Below, in pieces: positions 23,563-40,029 of a stretch of 64,000 bases of DNA. Source of the stretch: Burkholderia sp. 9120 (GTDB lineage: Bacteria > Pseudomonadota > Gammaproteobacteria > Burkholderiales > Burkholderiaceae); assembly GCF_000745015.1 (NCBI RefSeq), contig NZ_JQNA01000002.1:4650001-4714000 (forward strand), written 5' to 3'. The translations under genes were made by a program, and so were the position numbers. Each line of letters starts with the position of its first letter. Position 1 is the first letter of the stretch. The notes below the pieces were generated by a model that worked only from the letters and a program-made list of their open reading frames with translations, ran no database searches and was not told the DNA's origin.

Positions 23563-23957
23563 TCAGCGCAGCACGCTGGCCACCGAAACGAACATGCACC
23601 GGCCGCCATGCAAACGGCATGCATAGCGGCCGGTAAAGCCTCTGCCGATTACACGCGGCATTTCAAACAAATGACTGAAACATTCGCGCTCGATTCGAAT
23701 ACCGATGCGTCATGCATTTTTTGAAAATAATTAGCGCCAATAGACATTGGAGGAAAGCGAAAAACCCAAAATCGAGTCTAGTCGCTTTAAGCATTGTTAA
23801 CTAAGATAGCCGCTAACTCATTGCTGAGAGCGCGACGACATCGATGCGAAAGTACCGGGTCAATTTTGCCGTTCCAGGCGAATGCCACGTATAAATGACG
23901 CAATGTGGCTCGCGTTACTCGCCCAGGGTTTGGCTTCGGCCGGCAGCACGTGAGCCG
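23563..23957. other. 395-base region between antiporter and pelA
   Basis: Contains an imperfect hairpin (ACCGGCCGC 23598-23606 with GCGGCCGGT 23626-23634, inner CATGC/GCATG) just past the antiporter stop, then an AT-rich stretch around 23700-23830 that probably carries the pel promoter. No FleQ-type box or riboswitch could be recognised with confidence. Confidence 0.5.
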
Positions 23958-26876
23958 ATGTCCGCGCGGCCTGAGCGCGCGGCGTCGCACGTCGTGCGGC
24001 TCGCGTTGCGGTTTGGATTATTCGCGCTGGTTACCGTTTCAATCTGGCTGCATGGCGGCGCCGCAAACGCCGCGACGGATACCAGCACCGCGATAGCGCC
24101 AGGCGCGTTTGCGTCCCAGACCTCATCCTCCGCGAATGTCCCAGCCGCAACCCCGCGCCAGCCTTCGTTCGCGCTGTATTACGGCAAGAACCCGCCCGTC
24201 GAGCTGCTGTCCGCCTACGATGCCGCCGTAGTCGAACCCGACAGCGGTTTCAACCCGCTGGCTCACGCGCTGCCGCACACCACCTGGTTCGCTTACGCGA
24301 GCGTCGGCGAAGTGCTCCCTTCGCGCAGCTACTACGCGGCGCTGCCTAAAGCCTGGCTCGCGGGCCACAACGAAGCCTGGGCCTCGCGCGTGGTCGATCA
24401 AAGTCAGCCGGGCTGGCCCGCGTGGTATGTGGAACAGGTCATTACGCCGCTCTGGGATAAAGGCTATCGCGGCTTTTTTCTCGACACGCTGGATTCATGG
24501 CAATTAGTCGCCAAAACGGATGCCGATCGCGCCGCTCAACAGGCCGGATTGGTGGCAGTCATTCGCGCCATCAAACAGCGCTATCCCAATGCGAAACTGA
24601 TCCTGAATCGCGGCTTCGAAATTCTGCCGCAAATTCACGATCTCGCTTATGCGGTCGCATTCGAGTCTTTATATCGCGGCTGGAATCAGGCGCAGCAGCG
24701 CTATACCGAAGTCCCGCAAGCCGATCGAGACTGGCTGCTGGGCGAGGCGAAGACGATCCGCGAGCAATACCATCTGCCGGTGATTTCGATCGACTATTGC
24801 GCGCCCTCCGATCGCGTCTGCGCGCAGAACGCCGTCAGCCAAATCCGCGCGCAAGGCGTCGTGCCGTACGTGACCGACGGCGGGCTTGTCACCGTGGGCG
24901 CGGGCGCGGTCGAACCGCTGCGGCGTCGCATTCTCGTGATCCAGGACCCACCGGCGCGCACCGATCTGAACGTGTCGCCGGGTGTGCGTTTTCTGGCCAT
25001 GCCGCTGAACTATCTGGGCTACCGGATCGATTACGCCGACGCGCGCGAGCCGTTGCCGCCAGGCGATCTGCGCGACCGCTACGCCGGTATCGTGCTGTGG
25101 ATGAACAACGACGTGCCGCGCGCCACCGACTATCGCGCGTGGCTGTCGGCGCAAATCGATGCGGGCTTGCCGATCGCGGTGTTCACGTCGTTCGGCGCAC
25201 AACTCGATCCGGCGCTCGCGCAAAAGCTCGACTTGCAGGTCGTGCCGGGCCAGCCGTCGAACGGCAAACTCGAGGTCGAATCGTTCGATCCGAAGCTGAT
25301 GGGTTTCGAAATGAAGCCGCGCCCGGACCCGCACGATTACACCGCCGTGCGCGTCGGCCCGCATAGCCGCTCATTGCTGCGGCTGCGCTCGGGCAACTTC
25401 GTGATCGACGGCGCGGCGCTCACGCCGTGGGGCGGCTACGCGATGCGGCCGTTCGGCGTGTTCGATCTGGGCGCGGTCAATCAGGCGCGCTGGGTCACGC
25501 AGCCCATCGCCTTTCTGCAAGCGGCGCTGCGCTTGCCCGCCGACATGCCGGTGCCCGACACCACCACGGAGAACGGCCGCCGTCTGCTGATGTCGCATAT
25601 CGACGGCGACGGTTTCGCGTCACGCGCGGAATTCAGCGACCACGGTATGCCGAACACCGACGCGTCGCCGCAATATTCCGGCGACGTGCTATTCCGGCTG
25701 TTGCGCGACTCGGGCATGCCGACCACCGTCTCGCTGATCGAAGGCGAAGTCAGCGACGACGGGCCGTATAAGGCCTTCGCCGCGCATTTGCGCCTGCTCG
25801 GCCGGCGCATCTTCGAACTGCCTAACGTGGAAGTCGCGACCCACACTTACACGCATCCGTTGCAATGGATGCGCGTCACCGGACTCGGCATTTCCAACGA
25901 CAAGGACGTGCCGACCGAAGGCGGCAGCCAGACCAACAGCACCGGCCTGTCGATCGACATTCCCGGCTACCGCTTCAACATCGACCGCGAGATCGGCGGG
26001 TCGATCAGCTATATCGACAAACAGATCACGCCGCTCACCAAGCCGGTACGCATGGTGCTGTGGAGCGGCGACTGCCAGGTGCCCGCGCCGGTGCTGAAGG
26101 CCGCGTATGACGCCGGCGTGCTGAACATGAACGGCGGCGACACGCTGATCACGAAAAGCTATCCGAGCTGGACTGCGATCGCGCCGCTCGGCGTGATGAA
26201 AGACGGCTACTTCCAGGTGTTCGCGCCGAACCAGAACGAAGAGTTGTACACCGACCTGTGGCATGGACCGTACTACGGTTTCACCCGCGTGCTCGAAACC
26301 TTCGCGATGACCGACCAGCCGATCCGTTTCAAGCCGATGGACATTTACTACCACATGTTCTCCGGCACCAAGTTCGCGTCCGTGCAGGCGCTGCAGCAGA
26401 TTTTCGACACCGTGTTGCGGCAACCGGTGAATCCGGTGTTCTCCTCTGACTACGCCCGCAAGGTGCTGGATTTTCTCGACATGAGCATTGCCCGCGACGG
26501 CGCGCGCTGGGTGGTGCGCGACGCCGGTCAACTGCGCACCGTGCGGCTGCCGCCCGGCCGGGTGCCGGACATGGCGAGCGCGACCGGCGTGGCCGGCTAT
26601 CTGCCCGGTCCGGGCGGCACCTATGTCCATCTCACCGGCGGTGAGGCGAGCTTCACGGTAATCGATGCGGCCAGCGCGCCGCGCGTGCCGTATCTCGCCG
26701 ACGCGAACGGCCGCATCGACCATTTCGAACGCACGTCGGGCGGCTTCTCGTTCGATCTGCGCTCGCGGATCGCGCCGCAATGGCGCCTCGCGAATGCGGG
26801 CGCCTGCCGCGTGAGCCGCCGACCTCTTTCCAACGACGCCCATCAATTGCATGTCGACGTCGCCTGCGACACCTGA
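23958..26876 (+). CDS. pelA: PelA, Pel polysaccharide deacetylase/hydrolase
   Basis: A 972-residue periplasmic protein (P. aeruginosa PelA is 948). A signal peptide (LALRFGLFALVTVSIWLHG) is followed by a glycoside-hydrolase TIM barrel (about 45-310: FALYYGKNPPVELL, FFLDTLDSWQLV), a Rossmann-like middle part, and a deacetylase domain with LLMSHIDGDGFASR and the metal-binding VATHTYTHPLQW (H-x3-H). It trims and partly deacetylates the GalNAc-rich Pel polymer, making it cationic. ATG 23958 is preferred to 23895 since it places the signal peptide near the N-terminus. Overlaps pelB by 26 bases. Confidence 0.93.
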   Translation: MSARPERAASHVVRLALRFGLFALVTVSIWLHGGAANAATDTSTAIAPGAFASQTSSSANVPAATPRQPSFALYYGKNPPVELLSAYDAAVVEPDSGFNPLAHALPHTTWFAYASVGEVLPSRSYYAALPKAWLAGHNEAWASRVVDQSQPGWPAWYVEQVITPLWDKGYRGFFLDTLDSWQLVAKTDADRAAQQAGLVAVIRAIKQRYPNAKLILNRGFEILPQIHDLAYAVAFESLYRGWNQAQQRYTEVPQADRDWLLGEAKTIREQYHLPVISIDYCAPSDRVCAQNAVSQIRAQGVVPYVTDGGLVTVGAGAVEPLRRRILVIQDPPARTDLNVSPGVRFLAMPLNYLGYRIDYADAREPLPPGDLRDRYAGIVLWMNNDVPRATDYRAWLSAQIDAGLPIAVFTSFGAQLDPALAQKLDLQVVPGQPSNGKLEVESFDPKLMGFEMKPRPDPHDYTAVRVGPHSRSLLRLRSGNFVIDGAALTPWGGYAMRPFGVFDLGAVNQARWVTQPIAFLQAALRLPADMPVPDTTTENGRRLLMSHIDGDGFASRAEFSDHGMPNTDASPQYSGDVLFRLLRDSGMPTTVSLIEGEVSDDGPYKAFAAHLRLLGRRIFELPNVEVATHTYTHPLQWMRVTGLGISNDKDVPTEGGSQTNSTGLSIDIPGYRFNIDREIGGSISYIDKQITPLTKPVRMVLWSGDCQVPAPVLKAAYDAGVLNMNGGDTLITKSYPSWTAIAPLGVMKDGYFQVFAPNQNEELYTDLWHGPYYGFTRVLETFAMTDQPIRFKPMDIYYHMFSGTKFASVQALQQIFDTVLRQPVNPVFSSDYARKVLDFLDMSIARDGARWVVRDAGQLRTVRLPPGRVPDMASATGVAGYLPGPGGTYVHLTGGEASFTVIDAASAPRVPYLADANGRIDHFERTSGGFSFDLRSRIAPQWRLANAGACRVSRRPLSNDAHQLHVDVACDT

Positions 26877-29800
26877 ACGGCAACGGCTGTTTTCGCCGGC
26901 CGTCATCCTCGTGCTCGGCGCGCTCACCGCGCTGATGCTGGTGCTCGCCTATCCGCGCGACAAGCTGGAAGCACGGCTACTGCGCGGCGCCAACGCGGAC
27001 GGCTTGACGATCGCGTATCTGGAAGCGTGGCTGCGGATCGATCCCGACAATCCCGACGTGCTGTCCGAACTCACCCGCGAGTATCTGAAGGGACAGCGGA
27101 TTGCGGAGGCGTCGCGCGTGCTCGACCGCTTGCAGCAGTCGCACGATCCGGCCGCGCGGCAAGGCGCGCTGGCGATTCGCGTGTCGATCGCGCAGCAGCG
27201 GCTGTACCTGCTGAAGACCGACGATCCCGCGCGGGCGGCGCGACTGCGCGAACTCGACGCGTTGCTGCACGAGGCCGCCGCGTACACGTGGGACAACGAG
27301 CAGCTTGCGTTGCTGGCGCGTCAGGCGCGCGGATTGAACGACAGCGATCTTGCGGCGCGTTATTACCGTCAGTTGATCCAGCGCGATCCCGCGCATGCGA
27401 GCGGCTGGCTGGTCGACCTCGCGCAAACCGAACTCGGCAACGGCCGCTATGCAGCGGCGGCGAATGCGTGGTTCGAGGCGCAACGGCATGCCGACGATCG
27501 GGACCAGCGGCGCGCGCGTTTCATCGCGGGCGTGAAGGCGCTGCAGGCAGGCAACGATCCGCTCGCGGCGATTCAGGCGGCGAACGCGCATCTCGGCGAT
27601 CTCGCCGACGATCCCGATACGTTGCGCTATCTCGCCAATCTGGCGCTCGCGGCTGGCCGGCCTGATCTGGCCGAGCAGTATGTGAAGCGGCTGCTCAAGA
27701 TATCGGCGGTGATGCCGCGCGAGATGCGCTCAGTGCGGCCCGCAGCGCTTGCCGATCGTGCGCCTGCTGACTATCGCAATGCTCAGGGCGTCTGGTTACG
27801 CGCCGCGTGGTATCGGCCCGCGCGTGTGGTTCGTGCTGACGCGCCGAACAACCACCACGGCGGCTTCCTTAAAGTCGCCGCCAGTGCGGCGCCCGCAACC
27901 GGCGCGCCACCCCCCGCAACCGTGCCCACGAGCGCCGCCGAATCCGACAACGAACTCGCCTACCGCGTGTTCCTCGCCAATGGCGACGTCGCCAACGCGC
28001 AGCGCATTGCTCAGGCCGCGCTCGACAAAGACCCGCAATCCGCGCTGTGGCGCGGCCGTCTCGCGCAGGTCGCGGAATGGAATCATCAACCGCAGGTGGC
28101 GCTGCGTAACTACCTCGCGCAGGCGCAGGCCAATGGCGACGCCAACGCCTGGCAGCAGGTCGCGCGCCTCGCGCCCGGCCTGAACGACAACGCCGCCGTG
28201 CTGGCCGTCACCTTGCATCAGTCGGAGCAGCAACCGGACAATCTGAAGCTGATCGACGCCGTGGTGTTCTCGTACGAACAACTCGCCGACCCGGACAGCG
28301 CGCTGCGCTTTCTGCAAGCGCGCATGCACGGCGCGCAGCGTCGCGCGGTGATGGAGCGTTACGCGCTGATCGCCGAGCGCAAAGGCGACGACGATCTCGC
28401 GCTGCGCACCTGGCGCGACCTCGAACGCGAGTTCGGCCCGAACAGCGCCTATGGCCTGAAAATCGCCACGCTGCTCTACACGCGCACCCAGTTCGACGCC
28501 GCGCTCGCCGCGATGAACGAAGCCAAGCCCGCCGCGCCGAACACCGATGGCGACTTCTGGCGCTTCTACGCGCTGCTCGCCAACACGGTTCAGCATCCGC
28601 ACGAGGCGAACCAGGGCTATCGCGCGCTGATTGCCGGCGGCAAGGCCGACGCCGACGACTACGAAGCGATGACCGGTTTCTACAACGATTCGCCGCTCGA
28701 CGCCGGCCGCCTCGCCGAATACGCGTACCGCCATGGCGGGCCGCCGCGCGCGCTCTCGCAAGCGCTGTATAACTATCAGCGCGCGCGGGCCTGGGGCCGG
28801 ATTCGCGTATTGCTTGCATCCCTCTCGCCCGAGGAACGCGGCGCCGCCGAACAGTCCGCCACCTTCCTGCTGGCGCGCGCCGAATACGAACGGCAAACCG
28901 GCTCGGTGGAAGACGCCGAGCGCGACATCAAACGCGCCGCGCGCCTCGCGCCCGACAACGTCGAAGCGCGCGCCGCGTATCTGTGGATGCTGACCGACCG
29001 CGGCACCGACGCCGAGCTGCGCAATGCCATGCGCAACGAGGCCGGCGACGCCGAAAACGACCCGCAACTGTGGGCGCCCTACGCCGCGGCGTCGATGCGT
29101 CTCGGCGACGGCCGCGCGGCGCTGCACTATCTGCACAAGCAGTCGGCGCAGGCCGCGCAGAGTCCGCTGTGGCGGCTGACCTATGCGGACGCGCTGGAGC
29201 TGAACAGTCGCATCGACGAAGCCTGGCAATTGCGCCGCAGCGTGTGGCTCGAACTCGCGCGGCGCCGTCGCGATCCGGCGCAGGCCAACGCGCTGCCCGC
29301 CGCCGAGCAGGACGATTTGCGCGGCCGCTATGTCGCGCTGACCACGCTGTTCGACAACGGCGACCGCTCGCGCGCCGTGCTGATCGAGATGCTGCGCGCG
29401 GACCAGGCGAGTCAGGCTGACGCGCAGTCGACGCAGACCTCCGAACTCGGCGACATCGGCCTGCTGCCGCCCGCGCAACAGGACGCGATCCGCAAAGAGC
29501 GGCGCGTTTATACGGCTATCGCGCGCGAGGCGGCAATTTCGTGGGCCCAGGTGCAGGACGCGTCCGACATGGAACGCGCGTGGCTGGAAAAGCAATACAT
29601 TCAACGCAGCACGCGGCCGGTGTACGCCGAGGCGCAACTGGCGATCAACGAGGGCGACGTCAACGAACTGTCGCGGCTGCTCGACACCCTGCCCGATCTG
29701 ATTCCCCGGCAAAACAGGGTCGATGCGCAAACGCTGACCGGCCGCAACGCCGATGCGCAAACCACCGCGTTCGAGTCGCTCACGAGCCTGCCCAACGACA

Positions 29801-30759
29801 GCGTGATGCACGGCCAGTTGCACGACCGGCTGCTCAGCAACGCGCAGGCGGTCTCGCCGTCGGTGCGTTACAGCGACCAGGGGCCGTTGCGCTTCAGCGA
29901 GGAATCGGTCACGGGCGGCGTGCGGTTGACGCCGTCGCAGGCGCTGCAATTGCGCTACCGGCAACGCGACCAGAGCACTGACGCCGGGTCGCTGCCCAAC
30001 GCGCCGAATCACGACCGCTTGCTCGAAGGCGTCTACTCGCACAAGGGGCAATACGACGAAGAACACGTGATCGTCGGCCGCCGCGAAGCGTTGAAGGATT
30101 TCGTGACCGCGCGCGTGGAAGGCACCTACGCGGTGAACCCGAAACTCACGCTCACCTATGCCGCCGGCTACAACCAGTCCGCCACCGAAACCACGCAACT
30201 GACCGTGGCCGGCGTGAAAGACATGGCGTCGGTCGGCTTCAACTACCGGCTCGATTCGCACTGGTTCGGCGGCGGCCGTTACGAGTACGACCGTTTTCAC
30301 GGCCAGGACCGCTCGTCGCTCGGCGACGGCCATCTCGTCGAATTGAACGCCGGCTACAAGATCAAGGCCGACTATCCCGACTACACGATCCGCGCGGTGT
30401 TCTCGCACGGCCAGTACAGCGCCAACGGCACACCGGGCGCGGCGCTGCAGAACCTGCTGCCGGCCGGCACTCCGTTCAACGCGCAGGCCTTCATGCCGCA
30501 AACCTTCACGCAGGGCGGCCTGCTGTTTTCTTTCGGCGACGACCTGCCGGAGAACTACTCGAAAGGCTGGCGGCCGATGTTCTCCGCCGGTCCGTTGCGC
30601 GACTCGCGCGCGGGCTGGTCGGGCCAGGTGATGGCCGGCCTCGTGGGCAGCCTGTTCGGCGGCGATCAGGTGCTGATCTACGGCTTGTATCAGGGGGCGT
30701 CGTCGAATCACTCGACCTCGGTGAAGGAAATCGGCGCGCGGTATCAGTGGCTGTACTAG
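26851..30759 (+). CDS. pelB: PelB, outer-membrane porin with TPR scaffold
   Basis: A 1302-residue protein (P. aeruginosa PelB 1193). One N-terminal transmembrane helix (AVILVLGALTALMLVLAYP, 18-36) is followed by a long TPR superhelix through about residue 900 (for example DNVEARAAYLWML and repeated D-P-x-A/S units) and a C-terminal beta-barrel from about 985 that ends in the aromatic GARYQWLY. The barrel exports Pel and the TPR part guides the polymer and holds PelA. The start lies inside pelA's 3' end, implying coupled translation. Confidence 0.94.
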   Translation: MSTSPATPERQRLFSPAVILVLGALTALMLVLAYPRDKLEARLLRGANADGLTIAYLEAWLRIDPDNPDVLSELTREYLKGQRIAEASRVLDRLQQSHDPAARQGALAIRVSIAQQRLYLLKTDDPARAARLRELDALLHEAAAYTWDNEQLALLARQARGLNDSDLAARYYRQLIQRDPAHASGWLVDLAQTELGNGRYAAAANAWFEAQRHADDRDQRRARFIAGVKALQAGNDPLAAIQAANAHLGDLADDPDTLRYLANLALAAGRPDLAEQYVKRLLKISAVMPREMRSVRPAALADRAPADYRNAQGVWLRAAWYRPARVVRADAPNNHHGGFLKVAASAAPATGAPPPATVPTSAAESDNELAYRVFLANGDVANAQRIAQAALDKDPQSALWRGRLAQVAEWNHQPQVALRNYLAQAQANGDANAWQQVARLAPGLNDNAAVLAVTLHQSEQQPDNLKLIDAVVFSYEQLADPDSALRFLQARMHGAQRRAVMERYALIAERKGDDDLALRTWRDLEREFGPNSAYGLKIATLLYTRTQFDAALAAMNEAKPAAPNTDGDFWRFYALLANTVQHPHEANQGYRALIAGGKADADDYEAMTGFYNDSPLDAGRLAEYAYRHGGPPRALSQALYNYQRARAWGRIRVLLASLSPEERGAAEQSATFLLARAEYERQTGSVEDAERDIKRAARLAPDNVEARAAYLWMLTDRGTDAELRNAMRNEAGDAENDPQLWAPYAAASMRLGDGRAALHYLHKQSAQAAQSPLWRLTYADALELNSRIDEAWQLRRSVWLELARRRRDPAQANALPAAEQDDLRGRYVALTTLFDNGDRSRAVLIEMLRADQASQADAQSTQTSELGDIGLLPPAQQDAIRKERRVYTAIAREAAISWAQVQDASDMERAWLEKQYIQRSTRPVYAEAQLAINEGDVNELSRLLDTLPDLIPRQNRVDAQTLTGRNADAQTTAFESLTSLPNDSVMHGQLHDRLLSNAQAVSPSVRYSDQGPLRFSEESVTGGVRLTPSQALQLRYRQRDQSTDAGSLPNAPNHDRLLEGVYSHKGQYDEEHVIVGRREALKDFVTARVEGTYAVNPKLTLTYAAGYNQSATETTQLTVAGVKDMASVGFNYRLDSHWFGGGRYEYDRFHGQDRSSLGDGHLVELNAGYKIKADYPDYTIRAVFSHGQYSANGTPGAALQNLLPAGTPFNAQAFMPQTFTQGGLLFSFGDDLPENYSKGWRPMFSAGPLRDSRAGWSGQVMAGLVGSLFGGDQVLIYGLYQGASSNHSTSVKEIGARYQWLY

Positions 30760-30818: not shown

Positions 30819-31385
30819 ATGGACCAAGCAAAACAAGCTCAAACGAAGCGGCCCCGTGTGCGCGCCGCGATGCTGTCGATCGTGCTCGGCGCCGCAGTCG
30901 GCGCGGCCCTTGGCGGTTGCTCGGTGATCGACCGGAGCACCGCGCCGGCGTTCTCGAAGAGCGATACGTGGGTGATCCTGCCGATCGCCAACAACACCGA
31001 GACGCCGCAAGCCGGACAGCGAGCCGCATCGATCGCGCAAAGCCTGTTGAGCGCGTATGGCTACGCCAATCTGACGCGCTATCCGACTAGCGCCGACGAC
31101 GAAACGCTGTTCGATCCGGCCAAGCCCGACGCCCAGCAGAACGCGCTGAACTGGGCCCGTCAGCAGAATGCGCACTATGCGCTGAGCGGCGCGGTCAACG
31201 AGTGGCGCTACAAGGTCGGCGTGGATGGCGAGCCGGCCGTCGGCATCACGCTCGACGTGCTCGACGTGCAAAGCGGCAAGGTCGTCTGGACCAGCACCGG
31301 CAGCCGCACTGGCTGGAGCCGCGACGCGGTGTCGGGCGTGGCGCAGAAGCTCGAGCGCGAGTTGCTGAGCCCGCTGGCGCGCTGA
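30819..31385 (+). CDS. pelC: PelC outer-membrane lipoprotein
   Basis: A 188-residue lipoprotein with lipobox AALGGC at Cys34 after a signal segment (AAMLSIVLGAAVGAA). PelC forms a dodecameric ring beneath PelB at the outer membrane and funnels the cationic polymer to the pore. The mature sequence (WVILPIANNTETPQAGQRA, ALSGAVNEWRYKVG, LDVLDVQSGKVVW) matches the family. Starts 59 bases after pelB with GGAG upstream; alternative start at internal Met18 would also keep the lipobox. Confidence 0.92.
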   Translation: MDQAKQAQTKRPRVRAAMLSIVLGAAVGAALGGCSVIDRSTAPAFSKSDTWVILPIANNTETPQAGQRAASIAQSLLSAYGYANLTRYPTSADDETLFDPAKPDAQQNALNWARQQNAHYALSGAVNEWRYKVGVDGEPAVGITLDVLDVQSGKVVWTSTGSRTGWSRDAVSGVAQKLERELLSPLAR

Positions 31386-31507: not shown

Positions 31508-32986
31508 ATGAACACGCGTGCTCCGGATCAATTCGCGCCGCGCTCCCGCTTCAAGCGTCGCCAGGCGCAAAGCATCGGCGCGGGCTCGTGGTGGGCGCGG
31601 CTGGTCGCGCCGCCGCGCGGCTCGGCGCGTCGCCGCGCCGTCACCACGCTCGAATCGGTCCTCGCGACGCTGCTCGCGATCGGCCTGTGCTGGCTGTTCC
31701 GGCCGCTCAACCCGTTGCTGATTCACGTCGGCTTCGTGTGGATCTGGAGCGTGCCGATCGTGCTGGCGTTGCGCTACGGGTCGATTGCCGGGACGTTCTC
31801 CGGGCTGATTCTGCTCGGCGCCTGGTACGTGCTGTATCCGGGCGCGGACCCGTCGTCGCTCGGTTCGATCGCGCATGCGCTGGGCGAGCCGCAAATGGAA
31901 CCGCAGCCGTTTCCGGTCGGCTTCTTCTTCGGCGGCTTTGCGTTCACGCTGCTGTGCGGACAATTCGGCGACGTGTGGATCACGCGGCTCGGCCAGGCGC
32001 GCATGGCGAACGACTACCTCGCCGAGCGACTGTCGATCCTCACGCGCAATCAGTTTCTGCTGCGGCTTTCGCATGAACGCCTCGAACAGGATCTGCTCGG
32101 CCGTCCCGCCACGTTGCGCGATTCGCTGGCGCGTATGCGCGCGGTGACGCTGACCCAGGAGCCCGGTAACGCGCAACGCGGCGTGGTGGATCTGCGTGGC
32201 GCGCAACAGTTTCTCGATACCGCGGCGCAGGCTTGCCAATTGGAAGGCGCGCGTCTTTACGCGTGGCGCGACGGCCATCCGCATCACGAAGCCGCCGCAT
32301 GGATCGGCACCACCTTCGAGCTCGACGCGGACGATCCCCTGGTGCGCGAAGCACTCGAAGTCCGCACGCTGGTGCATATCGAGTCGGCGACCCAGCAAAA
32401 GGCCGCGCAAAGCCGCTATATCGCGTGCGTGCCGTTGATCGACGCGCTGAAGCAACCGGTCGGCCTGCTGGTGATCGAGCGCATGCCGTTTCTCGCGTTG
32501 ACGCGCGACAACCTGCAATTCCTGCTGGTGCTGTGCAACTACTACGCGGACGGCGTGCAGCATGCCGACGTCACGCGCGACCTGCTGCAGGTGTTTCCCG
32601 ATTGTCCCTACGATTTCGCGCTCGATTACGCGCGGCTCGTGCATCTGTATCGCGATACGCGGGTGCGCTCGTCGCTGGTCGCGCTGGTGTTCGACGAGCG
32701 CACGGCCAGCACCACCTGGTACGACCACGTGCTGCGCACGCGGCGCGCGCTGGACGTGCAATGGGCGCGCAACAACGGGCCGCTGCGCGCGATTCTGACG
32801 CTGATGCCGCTGTCTGGCGAAGGCTCGATCGATGGTTATCTGCTGCGGATCGAAGACAATCTGCGCGCGCAATACGGCGTCGATTTCGAATCGGCCCGGA
32901 TTGCCGTGCACGCGATGCTGATCGCCGACGCGGATCCGGTGAATGAATTGCGGCGTTTGCTGGAGCGTTGCGATGCACGAGCCTGA
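31508..32986 (+). CDS. pelD: PelD c-di-GMP receptor
   Basis: A 492-residue inner-membrane protein (P. aeruginosa 455). Four hydrophobic helices lie between about 45 and 165, then a GAF domain and a degenerate GGDEF domain. The GGDEF active site is absent, as in all PelD, but an inhibitory-site motif R413-A-L-D416 (RxxD) is kept, and Arg447, 34 residues on, is well placed to be the second c-di-GMP-binding arginine. Binding of c-di-GMP switches on Pel synthesis. ATG 31508 is used; the earlier in-frame codons overlap pelC and lack resemblance. Overlaps pelE by 14 bases. Confidence 0.93.
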   Translation: MNTRAPDQFAPRSRFKRRQAQSIGAGSWWARLVAPPRGSARRRAVTTLESVLATLLAIGLCWLFRPLNPLLIHVGFVWIWSVPIVLALRYGSIAGTFSGLILLGAWYVLYPGADPSSLGSIAHALGEPQMEPQPFPVGFFFGGFAFTLLCGQFGDVWITRLGQARMANDYLAERLSILTRNQFLLRLSHERLEQDLLGRPATLRDSLARMRAVTLTQEPGNAQRGVVDLRGAQQFLDTAAQACQLEGARLYAWRDGHPHHEAAAWIGTTFELDADDPLVREALEVRTLVHIESATQQKAAQSRYIACVPLIDALKQPVGLLVIERMPFLALTRDNLQFLLVLCNYYADGVQHADVTRDLLQVFPDCPYDFALDYARLVHLYRDTRVRSSLVALVFDERTASTTWYDHVLRTRRALDVQWARNNGPLRAILTLMPLSGEGSIDGYLLRIEDNLRAQYGVDFESARIAVHAMLIADADPVNELRRLLERCDARA

Positions 32987-34346
32987 CGCGGATTCGGTGC
33001 GGGCAGCCTCCGAGTCGGCCTATGTGTCGCCCCGTGGCTCCGCTTCGGCTTCACGCTCCGGCGTGTTGTCCGCAGCGCTGGCTTTGCTCGCCGGACTCAC
33101 GGGCGTCGCGTTGCAACTCGCGGTTTTCCTGATCGCCACCCACGGCGCGCCGGACACCTCCGCGCAATGGCTCGGCGGCCTCCCCGACGACGCACCGGCC
33201 AGCGACGCCGCGCGTCTGAACACGCACACGCTGCTGCTCTGCCTGCTGATGCAGGCGCTGGCCGCCCTGCTGATCTCGCTCGGCATCGCCCGCGCGCTGC
33301 CGCCGCGTTACCGCGCGCCGCGCACAGGCGTGCTCGCCGCGCTGTGGTTCCTGAACTTCGCGCTGCCGATCGGCGGGGTGGCCTGCACGCTCGGTGCGCT
33401 GGCCATCGCGCGAATCCTGCCGCGTCCGCCTGAACGCTTGCCGGTCACGCAGATCGACGAGCCCGAATTCGCCGCCAATCTGATCGGCAACGTGTCGTAT
33501 GGCCGTGGCGCGCGTCTCAAGGCGGAGTTGCAGAACGCCGACGCCGGCACCGCGTTTCGCATGACCGCCCTGCTGGCCATGCAATCGATGCCCGCGCGCA
33601 CCGTTTCTCCGTTGCTGCAAGGCATGCTGGCCGACCCGCTCGACGACATCCGCCTGCTGGCGTACGGGATTCTCGACAATCGCGAGAAAGCCCTCACGCA
33701 GCGGATTCTGGTGGAACGCCCCAAGCTCGACCGCAAGCTGCATCCGGAGCTGAACGACACCGACCGGCGACGCGCCAACAAGACCCTCGCCGAGTTGTAC
33801 AGCGAGCTGATCTACGAGCATCTGGTGACTGGCGACGTCTATCGCAACGCCGCCGATCAGGCCGACGGTTTCGCCATCGCGGCGCTCGACGCCGATCCCG
33901 ACGACGCCTCGCTCTGGCGTCTGCGCGGCCGCCTCGCGCTCGACCGCCGCGAACTCGACAACGCCGACACGATGCTGCAACGCGCTATCGACTGCGGTTT
34001 TCCGCGCGAACGGATGCTGCCGTATCTCGCCGAAGCCGCCTATTTGCGGCGCGATTTCTCGCGCGTGCGCCGTTTGCTGCGCGAGATGGACAGCCACGCG
34101 GGCGGCTCGACGCTGCACGCGGTGCTGGCGTTCTGGCAAGGGCGTGAAGCGCGTGCAGCGAGTACAGCGACTAACGCTGCCGACCCGCGCGATTCGCGTG
34201 GCCCGCGCGCGGCCGACGCCGACGCCAACGCACCCGACGCATCCAGCTTGTCTAACGCTTCCGACTCATCGGCTCGCGGCGCCATGCGCCGTGCCATGCC
34301 CGACCCCCTGTCCGCGCCGGACGCACCGCCGAGACGCCCAACATGA
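32973..34346 (+). CDS. pelE: PelE inner-membrane TPR protein
   Basis: A 457-residue protein with three predicted membrane helices (SAALALLAGLTGVALQLAVF, LLLCLLMQALAALLISLG, ALWFLNFALPIGGVACTLG) and a cytosolic TPR-like helical part (about 170-395: PDDASLWRLRGRLALDRREL and AEAAYLRRDFSRVRRLL). PelE assembles with PelD, PelF and PelG into the synthase complex. The last 60 residues are low complexity (Ala/Asp/Ser) and longer than usual. Start MHEPDADS at 32973 overlaps pelD by 14 bases; its stop overlaps pelF as ATGA. Confidence 0.9.
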   Translation: MHEPDADSVRAASESAYVSPRGSASASRSGVLSAALALLAGLTGVALQLAVFLIATHGAPDTSAQWLGGLPDDAPASDAARLNTHTLLLCLLMQALAALLISLGIARALPPRYRAPRTGVLAALWFLNFALPIGGVACTLGALAIARILPRPPERLPVTQIDEPEFAANLIGNVSYGRGARLKAELQNADAGTAFRMTALLAMQSMPARTVSPLLQGMLADPLDDIRLLAYGILDNREKALTQRILVERPKLDRKLHPELNDTDRRRANKTLAELYSELIYEHLVTGDVYRNAADQADGFAIAALDADPDDASLWRLRGRLALDRRELDNADTMLQRAIDCGFPRERMLPYLAEAAYLRRDFSRVRRLLREMDSHAGGSTLHAVLAFWQGREARAASTATNAADPRDSRGPRAADADANAPDASSLSNASDSSARGAMRRAMPDPLSAPDAPPRRPT

Positions 34347-35965
34347 ACACTCCCAAAGCCGCCACCGCTACCGTCGCACACGCTGCGCAAACCCCGCACA
34401 CTCCGCACGCCGCGGCCAAACTCCCGCGCGCGGCCTCAGCCGATATCGCGCTGCTGCTCGAAGGCACGTTCCCTTATGTGAGCGGCGGCGTCTCCAGTTG
34501 GGTCAATCAGATCATCCGCGCGTTCCCGGAGTACACGTTCGCGCTGTGCTTTCTCGGCAGCCGTCCACAGGACTATCCGAAGATGTCGTATGCGTTGCCC
34601 GATAACGTCGTGCATCTGGAGAATCACTATCTGTACGACTTCGCGCCGCCGCCGATGATCCGCCACCAGGCCGGCGACCCTGCCGCCTTCATGCAGGCCG
34701 GCCAGATGCACGAGAAACTGCGCAACCCTGCCATGCGCCAGGCGGCCGGCCGGATGCTCAGGGACATGCTCGACGATCTGCGTCCCGGCGGCGCGCTCGG
34801 CGAAGAAGCGTTTCTGTATTCGAAGGAATCGTGGACCTACCTGACCGATCAATACCGGCAGTTCTGCACCGACCCGTCGTTCGTCGATTATTTCTGGACC
34901 GTGCGAATCATGCACAAGCCGCTGTGGCAGTTGGCCCGCATTGCCGAGGGACTGCCAAAGGCGAAGATGTTCCATACCGTCTCGACCGGCTACGCGGGTT
35001 TTCTGGGCGCTTTGCTGCGCTACCGGCATGGCCGTCCGCTGCTGGTGTCCGAACACGGCATCTACACGAAGGAACGCAAGATCGATCTGTTCCAGAGCCA
35101 ATGGATTCGCGACAACCGCAGCATTTTCGAACGCGACGTGTCGCAGATCGGCTATTTCCGCGATCTGTGGGTGCGTTTCTTCGAAACGCTGGGCCACGTT
35201 TGCTACGACGCTGCCGAGGACATCATCGCGTTGTACGAGGGTAACCGTCGACGTCAGATCGTTGACGGCGCACCCGAGTACAAGACCGCCAATATTCCCA
35301 ACGGCGTGAACCTGCCGCGGCTCGCGCCGCTGCGCGCGCAACGCGGCGCGCAGATACCGAAGACGCTGTGCCTGATCGGCCGCGTGGTGCCGATCAAGGA
35401 CATCAAGACCTTCATTCGCGCGATGCTGACCGTGGTGCGCCAGATGCCGGAGGCCGAAGCCTGGATCGCCGGCCCCGAAGACGAGGACGAGTCGTACGCG
35501 AACGAATGCCGCGCGTTGGTCGAGAGTCTCGGTTTGCAGGACAAGGTCAAGTTTCTCGGCTTCCAGAAGATCGACGAGTTGCTGCCGAAATGCGGCGTGC
35601 TCGTGCTGAGTTCGATTTCCGAAGCGCTGCCGCTCGTGGTGCTCGAAGGGTTTGCGGCGGGCGTGCCCTCGGTGACGACCGATGTCGGCTCGTGTCGCCA
35701 GTTGATTTATGGACTCGACGGCGAGGACGCGGCGCTCGGTGCGGCGGGCCGCGTGGTGCAGATCGCCGATCCGCGCGCGCTCGCCGAAGCGGCGCTCGAC
35801 CTGCTCGACGAACGCAACTGGCACGCGGCGCAAAAAGCGGGCATTGCACGGGTCGAGCGGTTTTATACGCAGGACCAGATGGTGCGCTCGTATCGCGAGT
35901 TGTACGCGCGGCTTACCGCGCTAGCGAATCTGGAGCCGACGCCGCAGCAGGCGCTGTCGTCCTGA
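34343..35965 (+). CDS. pelF: PelF GT4 glycosyltransferase
   Basis: A 540-residue cytosolic GT4 (GT-B fold) glycosyltransferase; P. aeruginosa PelF is 507. The N-terminal IALLLEGTFPYVSGGVSSWV is diagnostic. In the C-terminal Rossmann fold are LIGRVVPIKDIKTF, the sugar-nucleotide EX7E-like segment SSISEALPLVVLEGFAAG (Glu to Glu) and GVPSVTTDVGSC. It polymerises Pel from UDP-GalNAc/UDP-GlcNAc. An N-terminal extension of about 30 low-complexity residues is extra. Coupled to pelE through an ATGA overlap. Confidence 0.95.
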   Translation: MNTPKAATATVAHAAQTPHTPHAAAKLPRAASADIALLLEGTFPYVSGGVSSWVNQIIRAFPEYTFALCFLGSRPQDYPKMSYALPDNVVHLENHYLYDFAPPPMIRHQAGDPAAFMQAGQMHEKLRNPAMRQAAGRMLRDMLDDLRPGGALGEEAFLYSKESWTYLTDQYRQFCTDPSFVDYFWTVRIMHKPLWQLARIAEGLPKAKMFHTVSTGYAGFLGALLRYRHGRPLLVSEHGIYTKERKIDLFQSQWIRDNRSIFERDVSQIGYFRDLWVRFFETLGHVCYDAAEDIIALYEGNRRRQIVDGAPEYKTANIPNGVNLPRLAPLRAQRGAQIPKTLCLIGRVVPIKDIKTFIRAMLTVVRQMPEAEAWIAGPEDEDESYANECRALVESLGLQDKVKFLGFQKIDELLPKCGVLVLSSISEALPLVVLEGFAAGVPSVTTDVGSCRQLIYGLDGEDAALGAAGRVVQIADPRALAEAALDLLDERNWHAAQKAGIARVERFYTQDQMVRSYRELYARLTALANLEPTPQQALSS

Positions 35966-36034: not shown

Positions 36035-37405
36035 ATGGCCGGAATCGGGTTCGAACTGCGCAAGATGCTCCGCCGCGATACGCTGCTGGGGCTGATGCAG
36101 GCTTATACGTACGCCGGGCTGATCGGCGCGGGGCCGTGGGTGCTGTCGATCGTCGGCATTCTGCTGATCGGTGTGCTGAGCCTGCCGTTCGTCTTGCCCA
36201 CCGGGCTCATCACACAGTTTCAGGTCTCGGTGACGTATCTGATCTCGTTGTCGCTGATTCTCACCGGCCCGTTGCAACTTGCCTACACGCGCTTTACCTC
36301 CGACCGTCTGTTCGAAAAGCGCGACGACCTGGTGCTGCCGAACTATCACGCGGTGGCGTTCGTCGTGACGGCGGCATCCGCGGTGCTCGGCACGCTGGCG
36401 ATCGTGCTGCTGTTTCCGCAGCAGACCGTCGCGTACCGGCTGCTCATGCTGGCCGGCTTCGTCGTGATGTGCAACATCTGGATCGCGACGATTTTTCTGT
36501 CGGGCATGAAGCAGTATGTGTCGATCATCGTGGTGTTCTTTATCGGCTATACCTTCACCACCGGTGCGGCGCTCGCGCTCAACCGCTTCGGCCTGACCGG
36601 GCTGCTATCGGGCTTCGTGACCGGCCAGACTATCTTGCTGGTCGGCCTGCTCGCGCTGATCTACCGCGATTACCGCAGCGATCATTTCATCTCGTTCGAA
36701 GTGTTCTGGAAACAGTACCGTTACCCGTCGTTGATGCTCACCGGTCTGCTGTACAACCTCGCGATCTGAGTCGACAAGTTCATGTTCTGGTACTCGCCCG
36801 GCACGGGCCAGCCGGTGATCGGGCCGCTGCGGGCGTCGCTCATCTACGACATTCCCGTGTTTCTCGCGTATCTCGCGATCATTCCGGGCATGGCGGTGTT
36901 TCTGATGCGGATCGAAACCGACTTTGTGGAGTACTACGACGCCTTCTACGACGCGGTGCGCGAAGGCGCGTCGCTGCAGCATATCGAGCGCATGCGCAAC
37001 GCGATGGTGGAAGCGCTGCGCAACGGCATCTGGGAGATCATCAAGGTGCAGACCATCGCCGCGATGATGCTGTTCGCCGCCGGCACCGTGCTGCTGTCGT
37101 GGCTGAAAATTTCGACGCTTTATCTGCCGCTGCTTTATATCGACGTGATCGCCGCCAGCATGCAGGTCGTGTTCATGGGCACGATCAACGTGTTCTTCTA
37201 TCTCGACAAACGCAAGATCGTGCTGTGTCTGGTGGCGGGGTTCGTCGTGTTGAACGTGATTTTCACGGCGTTGACGCTTGCGCTCAATCCCGCTTTCTAC
37301 GGCTATGGTTTCGCGGGCGCGCTGCTGGTGGTCGTGCTGGCGAGTCTTTACCTGCTCGATCGTAAATTGGAATCGCTAGAATACGAGACCTTCATGCTGC
37401 AATAA
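36035..37405 (+). pseudogene. pelG: pelG interrupted by an in-frame TGA
   Basis: Together the two halves make 456 codons, the length of P. aeruginosa PelG (456), an inner-membrane Wzx-like transporter with about 12 helices. Residues 1-244 (MAGIGFELRKMLRRDTLLGL onward) and 246-456 (VDKFMFWYSP onward) are in the same frame; only TGA at 36767-36769 separates them, in the context YNLAI-stop-VDKFMFW. A tryptophan (TGG) is expected there, so a single G-to-A change explains it. An ATG at 36782, 12 bases past the stop, could restart the second half. Either a recent loss of Pel secretion, a split protein, read-through, or a sequence error; both halves otherwise show no decay. Confidence 0.85.
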
Positions 37406-37419
37406 GGCCTCCTCTTTCG

Positions 37420-37989
37420 ATGACCTTACCCAACGAATCGACACGTAACGCGCGAGCGAGTGCAGCCAACTCGCTGTTTGCCTTTCTGAAGGCGTTGCCG
37501 CTTGGCGAGCGGCTGATCGAAGGCGGTTTCATGGCGGTGCAGGCGGTGGCCGGCGCGAGTCTCGCGTTCGAGATCGGCCGCCTGCTGCATACCGAGCAGG
37601 CGTTCTGGGCCGCGATCACCGCGATCGCGGTCAGCCAGCATAGCTATATCGACACGCGCAATCTGTCGCGCGATCAGTTTATTGGCGCGATGGTGGGTGG
37701 CGTGTGCGGGCTGGCGGGCGCGCTGCTTGGCGGCGGGTATTTCGCGGCTTATGCGGCGACGGTGGGCGTCGCGATTGTCGTGTGCTGGATTCTGAATGTG
37801 GGCAGCGCGGCGCGGCTGGGTGGGATTACCGCGACGATCATGCTGCTGGTGCCGGGGATGGGGCCGCCCTGGGATAAGGCGCTGCTGCGGTTGGGTGAGG
37901 TGACCCTGGGCACGGTGTGCGCGTTGTTGATGGCGTGGTTGATGTCGAAGGTTGAACAGCGGTGGTTTGGGAAGCCGCGCAATACGTGA
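37420..37989 (+). CDS. FUSC-family membrane protein
   Basis: A 189-residue inner-membrane protein resembling the membrane half of FUSC/aromatic-acid-exporter proteins (fusaric-acid-resistance type): ERLIEGGFMAVQAVAGASL, TEQAFWAAITAIAVSQHSYI, GVCGLAGALLGGGYFA and the later TVGVAIVVCWILNVG. About five helices, no large cytosolic domain, so half the length of full FUSC transporters. It begins 14 bases after pelG, so it is almost surely in the pel transcript, though not a standard pel gene. Substrate unknown. Confidence 0.82.
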   Translation: MTLPNESTRNARASAANSLFAFLKALPLGERLIEGGFMAVQAVAGASLAFEIGRLLHTEQAFWAAITAIAVSQHSYIDTRNLSRDQFIGAMVGGVCGLAGALLGGGYFAAYAATVGVAIVVCWILNVGSAARLGGITATIMLLVPGMGPPWDKALLRLGEVTLGTVCALLMAWLMSKVEQRWFGKPRNT

Positions 37990-37996
37990 GGGACGG

Positions 37997-38296
37997 TCAG
38001 CGATGAGCCGTTCGTTGGTAGCGCCATAGCGTGCGGTAGCCGGCGAAGATCAGGCCTCCGACTAACAGCGTGGAAACGATCCAGTAAAGAAGTAAGGCGA
38101 GCATTTCCATGTCGTCGGCGTTCGCCAGGTCATTGTTTCCCGTCACCGAGAGCACGAAGCGGATGAAGCCGTCGACGAAATCCGGCATGTTGAACGGCAG
38201 GAGACTGAAGAGGCACGCGAGATACCATCCTCCTATAACGGAAACAACCACAAAGACCACGACGGCTAATATTTTCATTGCAAGCTGTCTATTCAT
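37997..38296 (-). CDS. two-helix membrane protein, candidate immunity protein for the Tlde1-like toxin
   Basis: A 99-residue protein with helices at about 6-30 (KILAVVVFVVVSVIGGWYL) and 64-88 (EMLALLLYWIVSTLLVGGLI) and a loop between them containing MPDFVDGFIRF and NDLANADDME. Its ATG overlaps the stop of the DUF2778 toxin gene (ATGA), the usual coupling of effector and immunity genes. A clear paralogue lies at 43724-44026 with the same loop motifs. If the loop is periplasmic it could block a periplasmic toxin. Role is inferred from position only; no known immunity family was recognised. Confidence 0.75.
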   Translation of the reverse strand: MNRQLAMKILAVVVFVVVSVIGGWYLACLFSLLPFNMPDFVDGFIRFVLSVTGNNDLANADDMEMLALLLYWIVSTLLVGGLIFAGYRTLWRYQRTAHR

Positions 38297-38838
38297 TTCA
38301 CTTCAACCGTTCCGTATGCCTTCATCGTAGTGCCTGGAACCGGCATCGTGAGCCCCCTGGATCGAATGAATTTTTGAAGTGCATCAAATGCACCCGAATT
38401 GACGACGGTAATGCATCCTTGGCTCAGTCGGAGCGGCCCCATTGGATGCAACCGGAAATTTCCCCTGGCGATTCCGTTAATGTTCGTGGTATCGCCCGAC
38501 ACGGGATTCCACAACATGAACCAGTACTGCCTGTCGGTGGAGCCAAAGCCGTATGTGCTCCACAAGTCACGCATCATTCCCATACGCCCACCCGAATGGC
38601 GGTCGACCAGATAATAAACTCCTTTAGGTAGCGGTCCGAGATTCGGAATAGCCGTGTCGTCCGGATTGTCCCGCCCTCGATCAGTTCCAGAAAAGGCCGT
38701 ACAGGTGCGGTTCCTGGACATGTGAGAATCGAAGTTTTCTGCTTGTTGAGAATGAAAGTGCATGCGACTGGCATATGACCATTCTTTATGTCCGTTCGGG
38801 GACGGCCATACTATCAACGTGGCTCTCTCATAAATCAT
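38293..38838 (-). CDS. DUF2778 Tlde1-like (L,D-transpeptidase-related) predicted T6SS toxin
   Basis: A 181-residue protein without signal peptide. The C-terminal half carries a catalytic pattern of L,D-transpeptidase-like enzymes: GPLPKGVYYLVDR, then GNFRLHPMGPLRLSQGCITV with His131 and Cys142. DUF2778 proteins of this kind (Tlde1) are type VI secretion effectors that attack peptidoglycan tetrapeptide stems in the target periplasm. ATG 38838 has GGAG at 9 bases and overlaps the stop of a small upstream frame; a GTG at 38847 is possible. The next gene, overlapping by four bases, is a two-helix membrane protein, the candidate immunity partner. No VgrG or Hcp gene is nearby. Confidence 0.82.
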   Translation of the reverse strand: MIYERATLIVWPSPNGHKEWSYASRMHFHSQQAENFDSHMSRNRTCTAFSGTDRGRDNPDDTAIPNLGPLPKGVYYLVDRHSGGRMGMMRDLWSTYGFGSTDRQYWFMLWNPVSGDTTNINGIARGNFRLHPMGPLRLSQGCITVVNSGAFDALQKFIRSRGLTMPVPGTTMKAYGTVEVK

Positions 38839-39026
38839 TGAAGCCACTCCGTGATTTCACTCTCTCGCGTCACGCCGTACTTCAAGGAGTTATTCTCGAT
38901 ACAGCCAGCCTCGGACCGGTAAAGCGCACGTAAGCACGGCATGCAATCTGAATGTCCCGAGCAACGTACGTATTTTCTGACACACGATTTGCAAACCTCA
39001 CGATCGCCAGGTGCGCAGAGCGGCAT
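38835..39026 (-). CDS. possible small Cys-rich protein upstream of the toxin
   Basis: A 63-residue frame, MPLCAPGDREVCKSCVRKYV and onward, with seven cysteines including CKSC and CMPC pairs that could bind zinc. Its stop overlaps the toxin's ATG (38838) as ATGA. No family recognised, and codon bias is weaker than in neighbours; the start is uncertain (39065, 39026 or 38950 region). Kept because of the exact coupling and clustered CxxC pairs. Confidence 0.3.
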   Translation of the reverse strand: MPLCAPGDREVCKSCVRKYVRCSGHSDCMPCLRALYRSEAGCIENNSLKYGVTRESEITEWLQ

Positions 39027-39045
39027 TCGCCGCAAGCAAGCGCAG

Positions 39046-40029
39046 CTAGCCTTGCGCCGCATCATCCTCTTGCGGCCGACGCCGGTAACGCCCCGGCGTC
39101 ACGCCGATACTTTGCTGAAACGCCTTGCCAAACGCGGCTTCCGATTGATAGCCCACCATCTCGCCGATCTCCGCCGCGCTACGCTGCGTGCGCAACAGCA
39201 GGTCGCACGCGATCGTCATGCGGATCTGCGTGAGGAAATCCATTACCGTCATGCCCGCCCGCTCGTTGAAATGGCGCGCGTAAGTGGCCCGGGACATCGC
39301 GGCGACGTCGCCTAGTTCGGCAATCGTCCATGCACGCTCCGGCGCGCTCAACATGCTTTGTACGGATGCGCCCAGACGCGCGTCAGCGAGCAGCGTCAGC
39401 ACGCCCGAGGTCGACGCGTTCTGTTCGCCATGCACGCGCAAGGCCATCGCGAAGAGCGCGTGGCTCAGCGCGGTGACGATGGCCAGCGCGCCCGGTTGAC
39501 GATGCTCCGCCTCGGCGCGCATCAGCGCGATCACCGTTTGCAACGGCCCGAGTGCCTGCGCGCCGCCGAGCGACACGTGGAACGGATCGGGCAGCGCATT
39601 CAGCAGTAACGCGGATGAGCCCGGCGAGTAAACGAAGCGGCCGCAGAGGAGATCGACATCGGGCTGCGCCGCGGGCGCGTTGCTGTTGTCGCCGTTGTTG
39701 CTATCGTCGCTGTCGTGGCCGTCGTTGCGTCGCACGGGCAGCATGCCGTCGTGACTTAGCGTCAACGGCGCCGTGGCGTTAGTTCGCGCCACATTGCGCA
39801 CACGATGCGCCGCACCGTGCGGAAACAGCACGAAATCGCCCGGCCGCAGCGCCACTTCCCCGCCGCCGGTGGTTTCGATCAGGCAGGCGCCTCCGAGCAC
39901 CAGATGAAACGGCGCGATACCCGTTTCCATCGGCGCGTGATCGATATCGAAGCCGCCCGAGAGAAGGCAACGCAGATCGAGGCTGGCTTGCGGGCGGGCA
40001 AGGTCGATCAATCGGCTGAGCATGTCCAT
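39046..40029 (-). CDS. AraC-family regulator with cupin sensor
   Basis: A 327-residue regulator. The N-terminal cupin_6-type domain (FHLVLGGACLIETTGGGEVA, LRPGDFVLFPHGAAHRVRN) is followed by an Asp/Asn-rich insert (about 105-120) and a C-terminal AraC DNA-binding region: WTIAELGDVAAMSRATYARH and SAAEIGEMVGYQSEAAFGKA, ending GVTPGRYRRR. Divergent from the AhpD-like gene at 40149 across 119 bases, the typical arrangement for AraC activators of small oxidoreductase genes. The short Asn/Asp insert (NNGDNSN) is a low-complexity loop. Confidence 0.9.
   Translation of the reverse strand: MDMLSRLIDLARPQASLDLRCLLSGGFDIDHAPMETGIAPFHLVLGGACLIETTGGGEVALRPGDFVLFPHGAAHRVRNVARTNATAPLTLSHDGMLPVRRNDGHDSDDSNNGDNSNAPAAQPDVDLLCGRFVYSPGSSALLLNALPDPFHVSLGGAQALGPLQTVIALMRAEAEHRQPGALAIVTALSHALFAMALRVHGEQNASTSGVLTLLADARLGASVQSMLSAPERAWTIAELGDVAAMSRATYARHFNERAGMTVMDFLTQIRMTIACDLLLRTQRSAAEIGEMVGYQSEAAFGKAFQQSIGVTPGRYRRRPQEDDAAQG

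Follow-up and report, generated by a model that had tools for sequence, protein, structure and literature searches.

The window, i.e., the 64,000-nucleotide stretch of DNA analysed here, carries a pelABCDEFG cluster in which pelG is interrupted by an in-frame TGA at codon 245 (36767-36769, plus strand), as read directly from the sequence. We consider it likely that this stop arose by a fresh nonsense mutation that puts one of the two pel clusters of the genome out of action, which would make pelG an ordinary young broken gene. According to this explanation, PelG would be cut short by a very recent single nonsense mutation. Of its 456 residues 244 would be left, with the break falling inside transmembrane helix 7, so that helices 1-6 would remain and the second half of a MOP-type transporter would be missing. 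In the sequenced isolate, the cluster of the window should then fail to export Pel through the inner membrane. An older and divergent second cluster with an intact PelG remains in the genome and may provide redundancy, and a loss of all Pel-type polymer would not be implied.

The pel cluster of the window

The source genome (G000), that of a soil bacterium, belongs to Paraburkholderia and comprises 8,455,632 bases in two contigs, with the window being C2:4650001-4714000. All seven genes pelABCDEFG are found together in the window in the usual order, and the six genes besides pelG are open reading frames, which agrees with the view of an earlier note on this DNA that the rest of the operon is intact. 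The features are the following:

23895 to 26876, plus strand: pelA, Glyco_hydro_114 (PF03537), sharing 44% identity with pelA of the second cluster
26851 to 30759, plus strand: pelB, PelB C-terminal beta barrel (PF24604) and TPR
30819 to 31385, plus strand: pelC, assigned by a weak LpoB-type match, by position and by 48% identity with pelC of the second cluster
about 31508 to 32986, plus strand: pelD, PelD_GGDEF (PF16963) and GAF, start read from the frame
32943 to 34346, plus strand: pelE, assigned by position and by 43% identity with pelE of the second cluster, no Pfam match
34343 to 35965, plus strand: pelF, glycosyltransferase, NCBIfam PelF (NF038011, 851 bits)
36035 to 36769, plus strand: first piece of pelG, 244 codons plus stop, PF16933 positions 1-244 (E 4e-80)
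36770 to 37405, plus strand: second piece of pelG, 211 codons plus natural stop, same frame as the first piece
36782 to 36784, plus strand: internal ATG of pelG, in frame, 12 bases 3' of the TGA, conserved Met 250 of PelG
37420 to 37989, plus strand: FUSC-like membrane protein (PF13515), just downstream of pelG

The nearest named pelG loci are those of Paraburkholderia sp. BL21I4N1 and P. bryophila LMG 23644, to which the first piece is 99% identical and which show about 93-95% identity in DNA across the matched stretches. The genome G105 of the same genus is 94.6% identical over 10 kb of the pel cluster. As far as the other pel genes could be aligned with those of the closest loci, they contain no stop; pelA entered this comparison only from residue 647, 692 or 784 on, depending on the locus, and the pelA of G105 lies outside it, as the retrieved loci start at these points. 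Over these alignments outside pelG, dN/dS is 0.04-0.25, with pelE being faster than its neighbours (0.22-0.25 against the closest loci). The alignments of pelB with L033 show 68 extra residues. Counterparts of the FUSC-like protein were found in L032, L033 and the G105 locus and not in L034. Further downstream, the minus strand at 38296-38847 encodes a protein of 184 residues that contains a Tlde1 domain (PF10908, E 9.3e-27), and the stretch from about 37993 to 39048 is unmatched in L033 and matched across by L032.

The interruption of pelG

The frame of pelG starts with ATG 36035 and continues over 244 codons, the TGA and 211 further codons to a natural stop ending at 37405, i.e., 244 + 1 + 211 = 456 codons, and the TGA at codon 245 deprives the window of a single open frame of about 456 codons. 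When searched apart, the second piece from ATG 36782 on matches PF16933 positions 250-452 (E 8.7e-72), so that the whole profile of 452 positions is matched by the window pelG through its two pieces. The search of the genome likewise flagged this copy with one TGA inside. The earlier note had claimed that an in-frame TGA splits pelG and that the two halves lie in one frame with jointly 456 codons, and both statements are confirmed. A frameshift or indel in pelG is ruled out, as frame and overall length are unaltered. Coding scores calculated from codon usage are as high beside the stop as further off on both sides. No other single-stop break was flagged when 184 kb of the genome, composed of the window and six 20-kb samples, were scanned with a simple codon-usage score that had its own thresholds and had been trained on 10,981 codons. 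Given these coding scores and the lone single-stop break flagged in 184 kb, the break of pelG is more than chance.

Conservation of the stop column among relatives

The column of the stop is occupied by tryptophan in all 105 aligned rows of relatives and by cysteine in none, which bears out the suggestion of a conserved tryptophan-like position. These rows were kept out of 110 loci other than L001, the five dropped being L021, L022 and L023, which were missed by the frame finder, L048, which meets a contig end, and L111, where the frame is lost; they include several genomes under two identifiers as well as the second copy of the window's own genome (L002). W245 is also invariant in the 34-row alignment used for the structure model described below, and the conserved residues adjoining the stop column are retained in the second piece of the window. 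The length of PelG is 456-458 residues in 78 of 80 named relatives, the exceptions being L048, which runs off its contig, and L111. The latter is the draft pelG of Cupriavidus basilensis OR16 (L111 10001-10618), which loses its frame after about residue 206, either by a break or by an assembly error.

Within the genus, PelG matches were obtained in 60 of 144 genomes (78 rows), and an internal stop was present in one row only, that of the window itself. Among these 78 rows the same stop was found in no other species, and intact PelG copies occur throughout the genus. The stop of the window therefore stands where relatives stay intact, as is expected for a nonsense pseudogene. Protein searches with the two pelG pieces, of which the best 120 of 217 and the best 120 of 334 matches were considered, yielded mostly fragments from short contigs. 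Among the matches listed there are five proteins of 207 residues besides the window's own. The lengths 228 (seven proteins) and 299 (ten proteins) are commoner, and recurring lengths, being general among these fragments, do not show a second split gene.

Age of the stop and the possibility of an error

Both pieces of pelG keep the marks of purifying selection. The dN/dS values of the first piece are 0.020 (L032), 0.029 (L033) and 0.039 (G105 locus), those of the second piece 0.024, 0.040 and 0.063, respectively. Codon changes were counted as private to the window where three relatives agree against it; they amount to nine synonymous and no non-synonymous changes in the first piece and to six and one, respectively, in the second. 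For a second piece without selection along the entire private branch, the six synonymous changes should be accompanied by about 18 non-synonymous ones, a value derived from the approximately 155 synonymous and 478 other sites that the dN/dS comparison implies. With one such change observed, the stop is either a late event on the private branch or not real. A nonsense pseudogene is marked by relaxed selection once it is broken; none is seen here, as the second piece stays at a dN/dS of 0.024-0.063, and without such relaxation, the stop is too young or unreal. An older, decaying pseudogene was rejected on the same grounds, with dN/dS being unchanged in both pieces. The recency of the break, which the earlier note had supposed, is supported by these low values and the near absence of private non-synonymous changes.

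The observations that point to a young stop are also those that a consensus or base-call error in the assembly would leave behind, in which case the living strain would have an intact pelG. The lack of decay in both pieces is what such an error would produce as well, no other PelG row of the genus has an internal stop, and the second piece of the window forms a protein cluster of one member on one contig, with no public copy from the same strain for comparison. We regard such an error as unlikely, although it has to be taken seriously as the main competitor of a mutation. No homopolymer is present at the TGA site, and the 184-kb scan flagged no further break of this kind. As a rough check, two large gene families of the source genome were compared with those of the sister genome G105. 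An internal stop is present in one of 149 MFS matches (L121, an MFS transporter, G000:C2:5204900-5207400) and in one of the listed rows of 151 LysR matches (L123, a LysR-type regulator, G000:C2:3304500-3306500), and in none of the rows listed for the same numbers of matches in G105, the LysR rows covering the lists up to near their end; a second flagged LysR row (L122) was left out of the internal stops, as its stop coincides with the end of the domain match. Two internal stops against none in G105 may point to errors or to an elevated mutation rate, but the difference is not significant. Compared with the sister genome, the two genes show different types of change in different contexts. No shared systematic error emerges from them, which counts against an error of that kind, although not against single errors. 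As a matter of judgement, a real mutation appears considerably more probable than an error, and the stop base is presumably real in cells.

Predicted consequences for the protein

For intact PelG of P. bryophila, AlphaFold2 predicted a structure from 34 sequences with a mean pLDDT of 85.6, a pTM of 0.85 and twelve long helices, in which residue 245 is located within the seventh helix (residues 231-253). The best Foldseek matches of this model in the PDB are MATE transporters, WzxE and MurJ, i.e., members of the MOP superfamily, with a query TM-score of 0.50-0.65 for 43 matches with E up to 0.001. The evidence for a polytopic MOP-type fold comes from this intact P. bryophila PelG. Judged by the model, the first piece would break off partway through helix 7 and would be devoid of helices 8-12, and a piece restarted at ATG 36782 would lack most of helix 7, so neither piece would be a clean half. 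A clean split between transporter halves was rejected for this reason, the break lying inside the predicted helix 7. In Pseudomonas aeruginosa all seven pel genes are needed according to the accessible part of PMC10269871, and a loss of function of the pel cluster in the window is the natural inference.

The earlier note had offered two ways in which PelG might nevertheless be used. In the first, translation restarts at ATG 36782 and the two PelG pieces assemble into a working transporter. The in-frame ATG only 12 bases after the TGA and the selection acting on the second piece fit this proposal, but the cut within the predicted helix 7, with most of this helix missing from the restarted piece, stands against it. 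The methionine is moreover present in 100 of 105 intact PelG rows and so is also a feature of intact relatives, and the pairing of the sequence upstream of this ATG with the 16S tail is unremarkable, with 29 of 80 other internal in-frame ATGs scoring as well. For a split gene, a break between domains and a ribosome site for the second part would be expected, and neither was found. Reassembly from ATG 36782 is therefore not borne out, and we regard it as extremely improbable.

The second is read-through of the TGA, for which tRNA-Sec and suppressor tRNAs were considered here and which would yield full-length PelG. The genome does encode a tRNA-Sec with the anticodon tca, and the purifying selection retained in both pelG pieces would fit a product that is still made. 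However, no SECIS-like fold was found in the 57 bases from just before the stop (z +0.78, with 159 of 200 shuffles as good), cysteine never replaces the tryptophan of the stop column in the 105 rows, and the other PelG rows of the genus are free of stops. In 21 of 21 genomes, the source genome included, the tRNA-Trp found has the same sequence over 76 bases, and the loci that by their coordinates span the 58 tRNA places contain no UGA-reading anticodon other than that of tRNA-Sec. With no SECIS-like fold, no suppressor tRNA found and the tRNA-Trp unchanged, recoding by tRNA-Sec or a mutated tRNA-Trp was rejected and the proposed read-through has so little in its favour that it is barely credible. 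Low-level natural misreading of UGA at pelG is possible. A PelG that stays usable by either route, with the stop tuning rather than abolishing Pel export, is very improbable even when both routes are taken together.

The second pel cluster of the source genome

Within C2:874000-893500 lies another complete pelABCDEFG cluster (L112), with all genes open and encoding PelG (457 codons), PelF (552), PelE (336), PelD (472), PelC (183), PelB (1340) and PelA (962). Its proteins are 39-64% identical to those of the window, with PelG at 62-64%. In a quick tree of 93 different rows of 106, which includes the first piece of the window and was rooted at the midpoint for drawing only, the two PelG copies fall into different well-supported groups, each with many Burkholderiaceae, and the second cluster is therefore not a fresh duplication. 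Compared with G105, the genes of L112 are free of stops and show a dN/dS of 0.06-0.13, which indicates that selection maintains the second cluster. Two or more near-full PelG copies are present in 15 of 144 genomes of the genus, including the source genome, and in the source genome and in G105 both PelG genes lie in pel clusters, the first G105 locus being read from within pelB on.

The expectation of the earlier note that the stop would silence Pel export has to be narrowed in the light of these data. The loss of the exporter of the window cluster stands as a plausible consequence, but the claim overlooks the second complete cluster; with the constrained, intact PelG encoded there, loss of the window PelG need not mean that the strain is Pel-negative. 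The spare cluster may be the reason why the loss is tolerated. It was further proposed that the stop was selected during laboratory growth, which is a special case of the fresh mutation favoured here. The youth of the stop agrees with this proposal, and in Streptococcus intermedius a stop in pelD separates two strains from one patient, a change that arose in the host and not in culture (accessible part of PMC12345266). Youth alone does not tell selection from drift, however, and the second pel cluster would blunt selection in the laboratory, so that we hold this special case to be distinctly improbable.

Taken by itself, the stop in pelG matters little, as it is one young nonsense allele and possibly an error. 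A useful by-product is the finding of two near-full PelG genes in 15 of 144 genomes, represented here by two well-separated lineages; if the stop is real, the strain constitutes a natural test of whether two pel clusters do separate jobs.

Comparison with known systems

No publication describing this pelG allele was recognised in literature searches, the results of which were judged mostly from listings, and the accessible part of PMC7112194 contains nothing on two pel clusters in this genus. The second cluster L112 has the same seven genes clustered as the window; it differs in that all of them are open and in that its PelG belongs to another group of the tree. With the PelG proteins of pelABCDEFG clusters (PF16933, inner-membrane Pel translocase), the window copy shares the family match and the gene order, and an intact relative has the MOP/MATE-type fold; in contrast to these proteins, it is broken by a stop at an invariant column. 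The closest published parallel found is the pelD stop of S. intermedius AP2, which goes along with a loss of Pel (accessible part of PMC12345266). In both cases one gene within a pel cluster has been hit by one recent nonsense change. In S. intermedius AP2, the change affects another gene in another phylum and the loss of Pel was shown by assay, whereas in the Paraburkholderia genome a second pel cluster is present.
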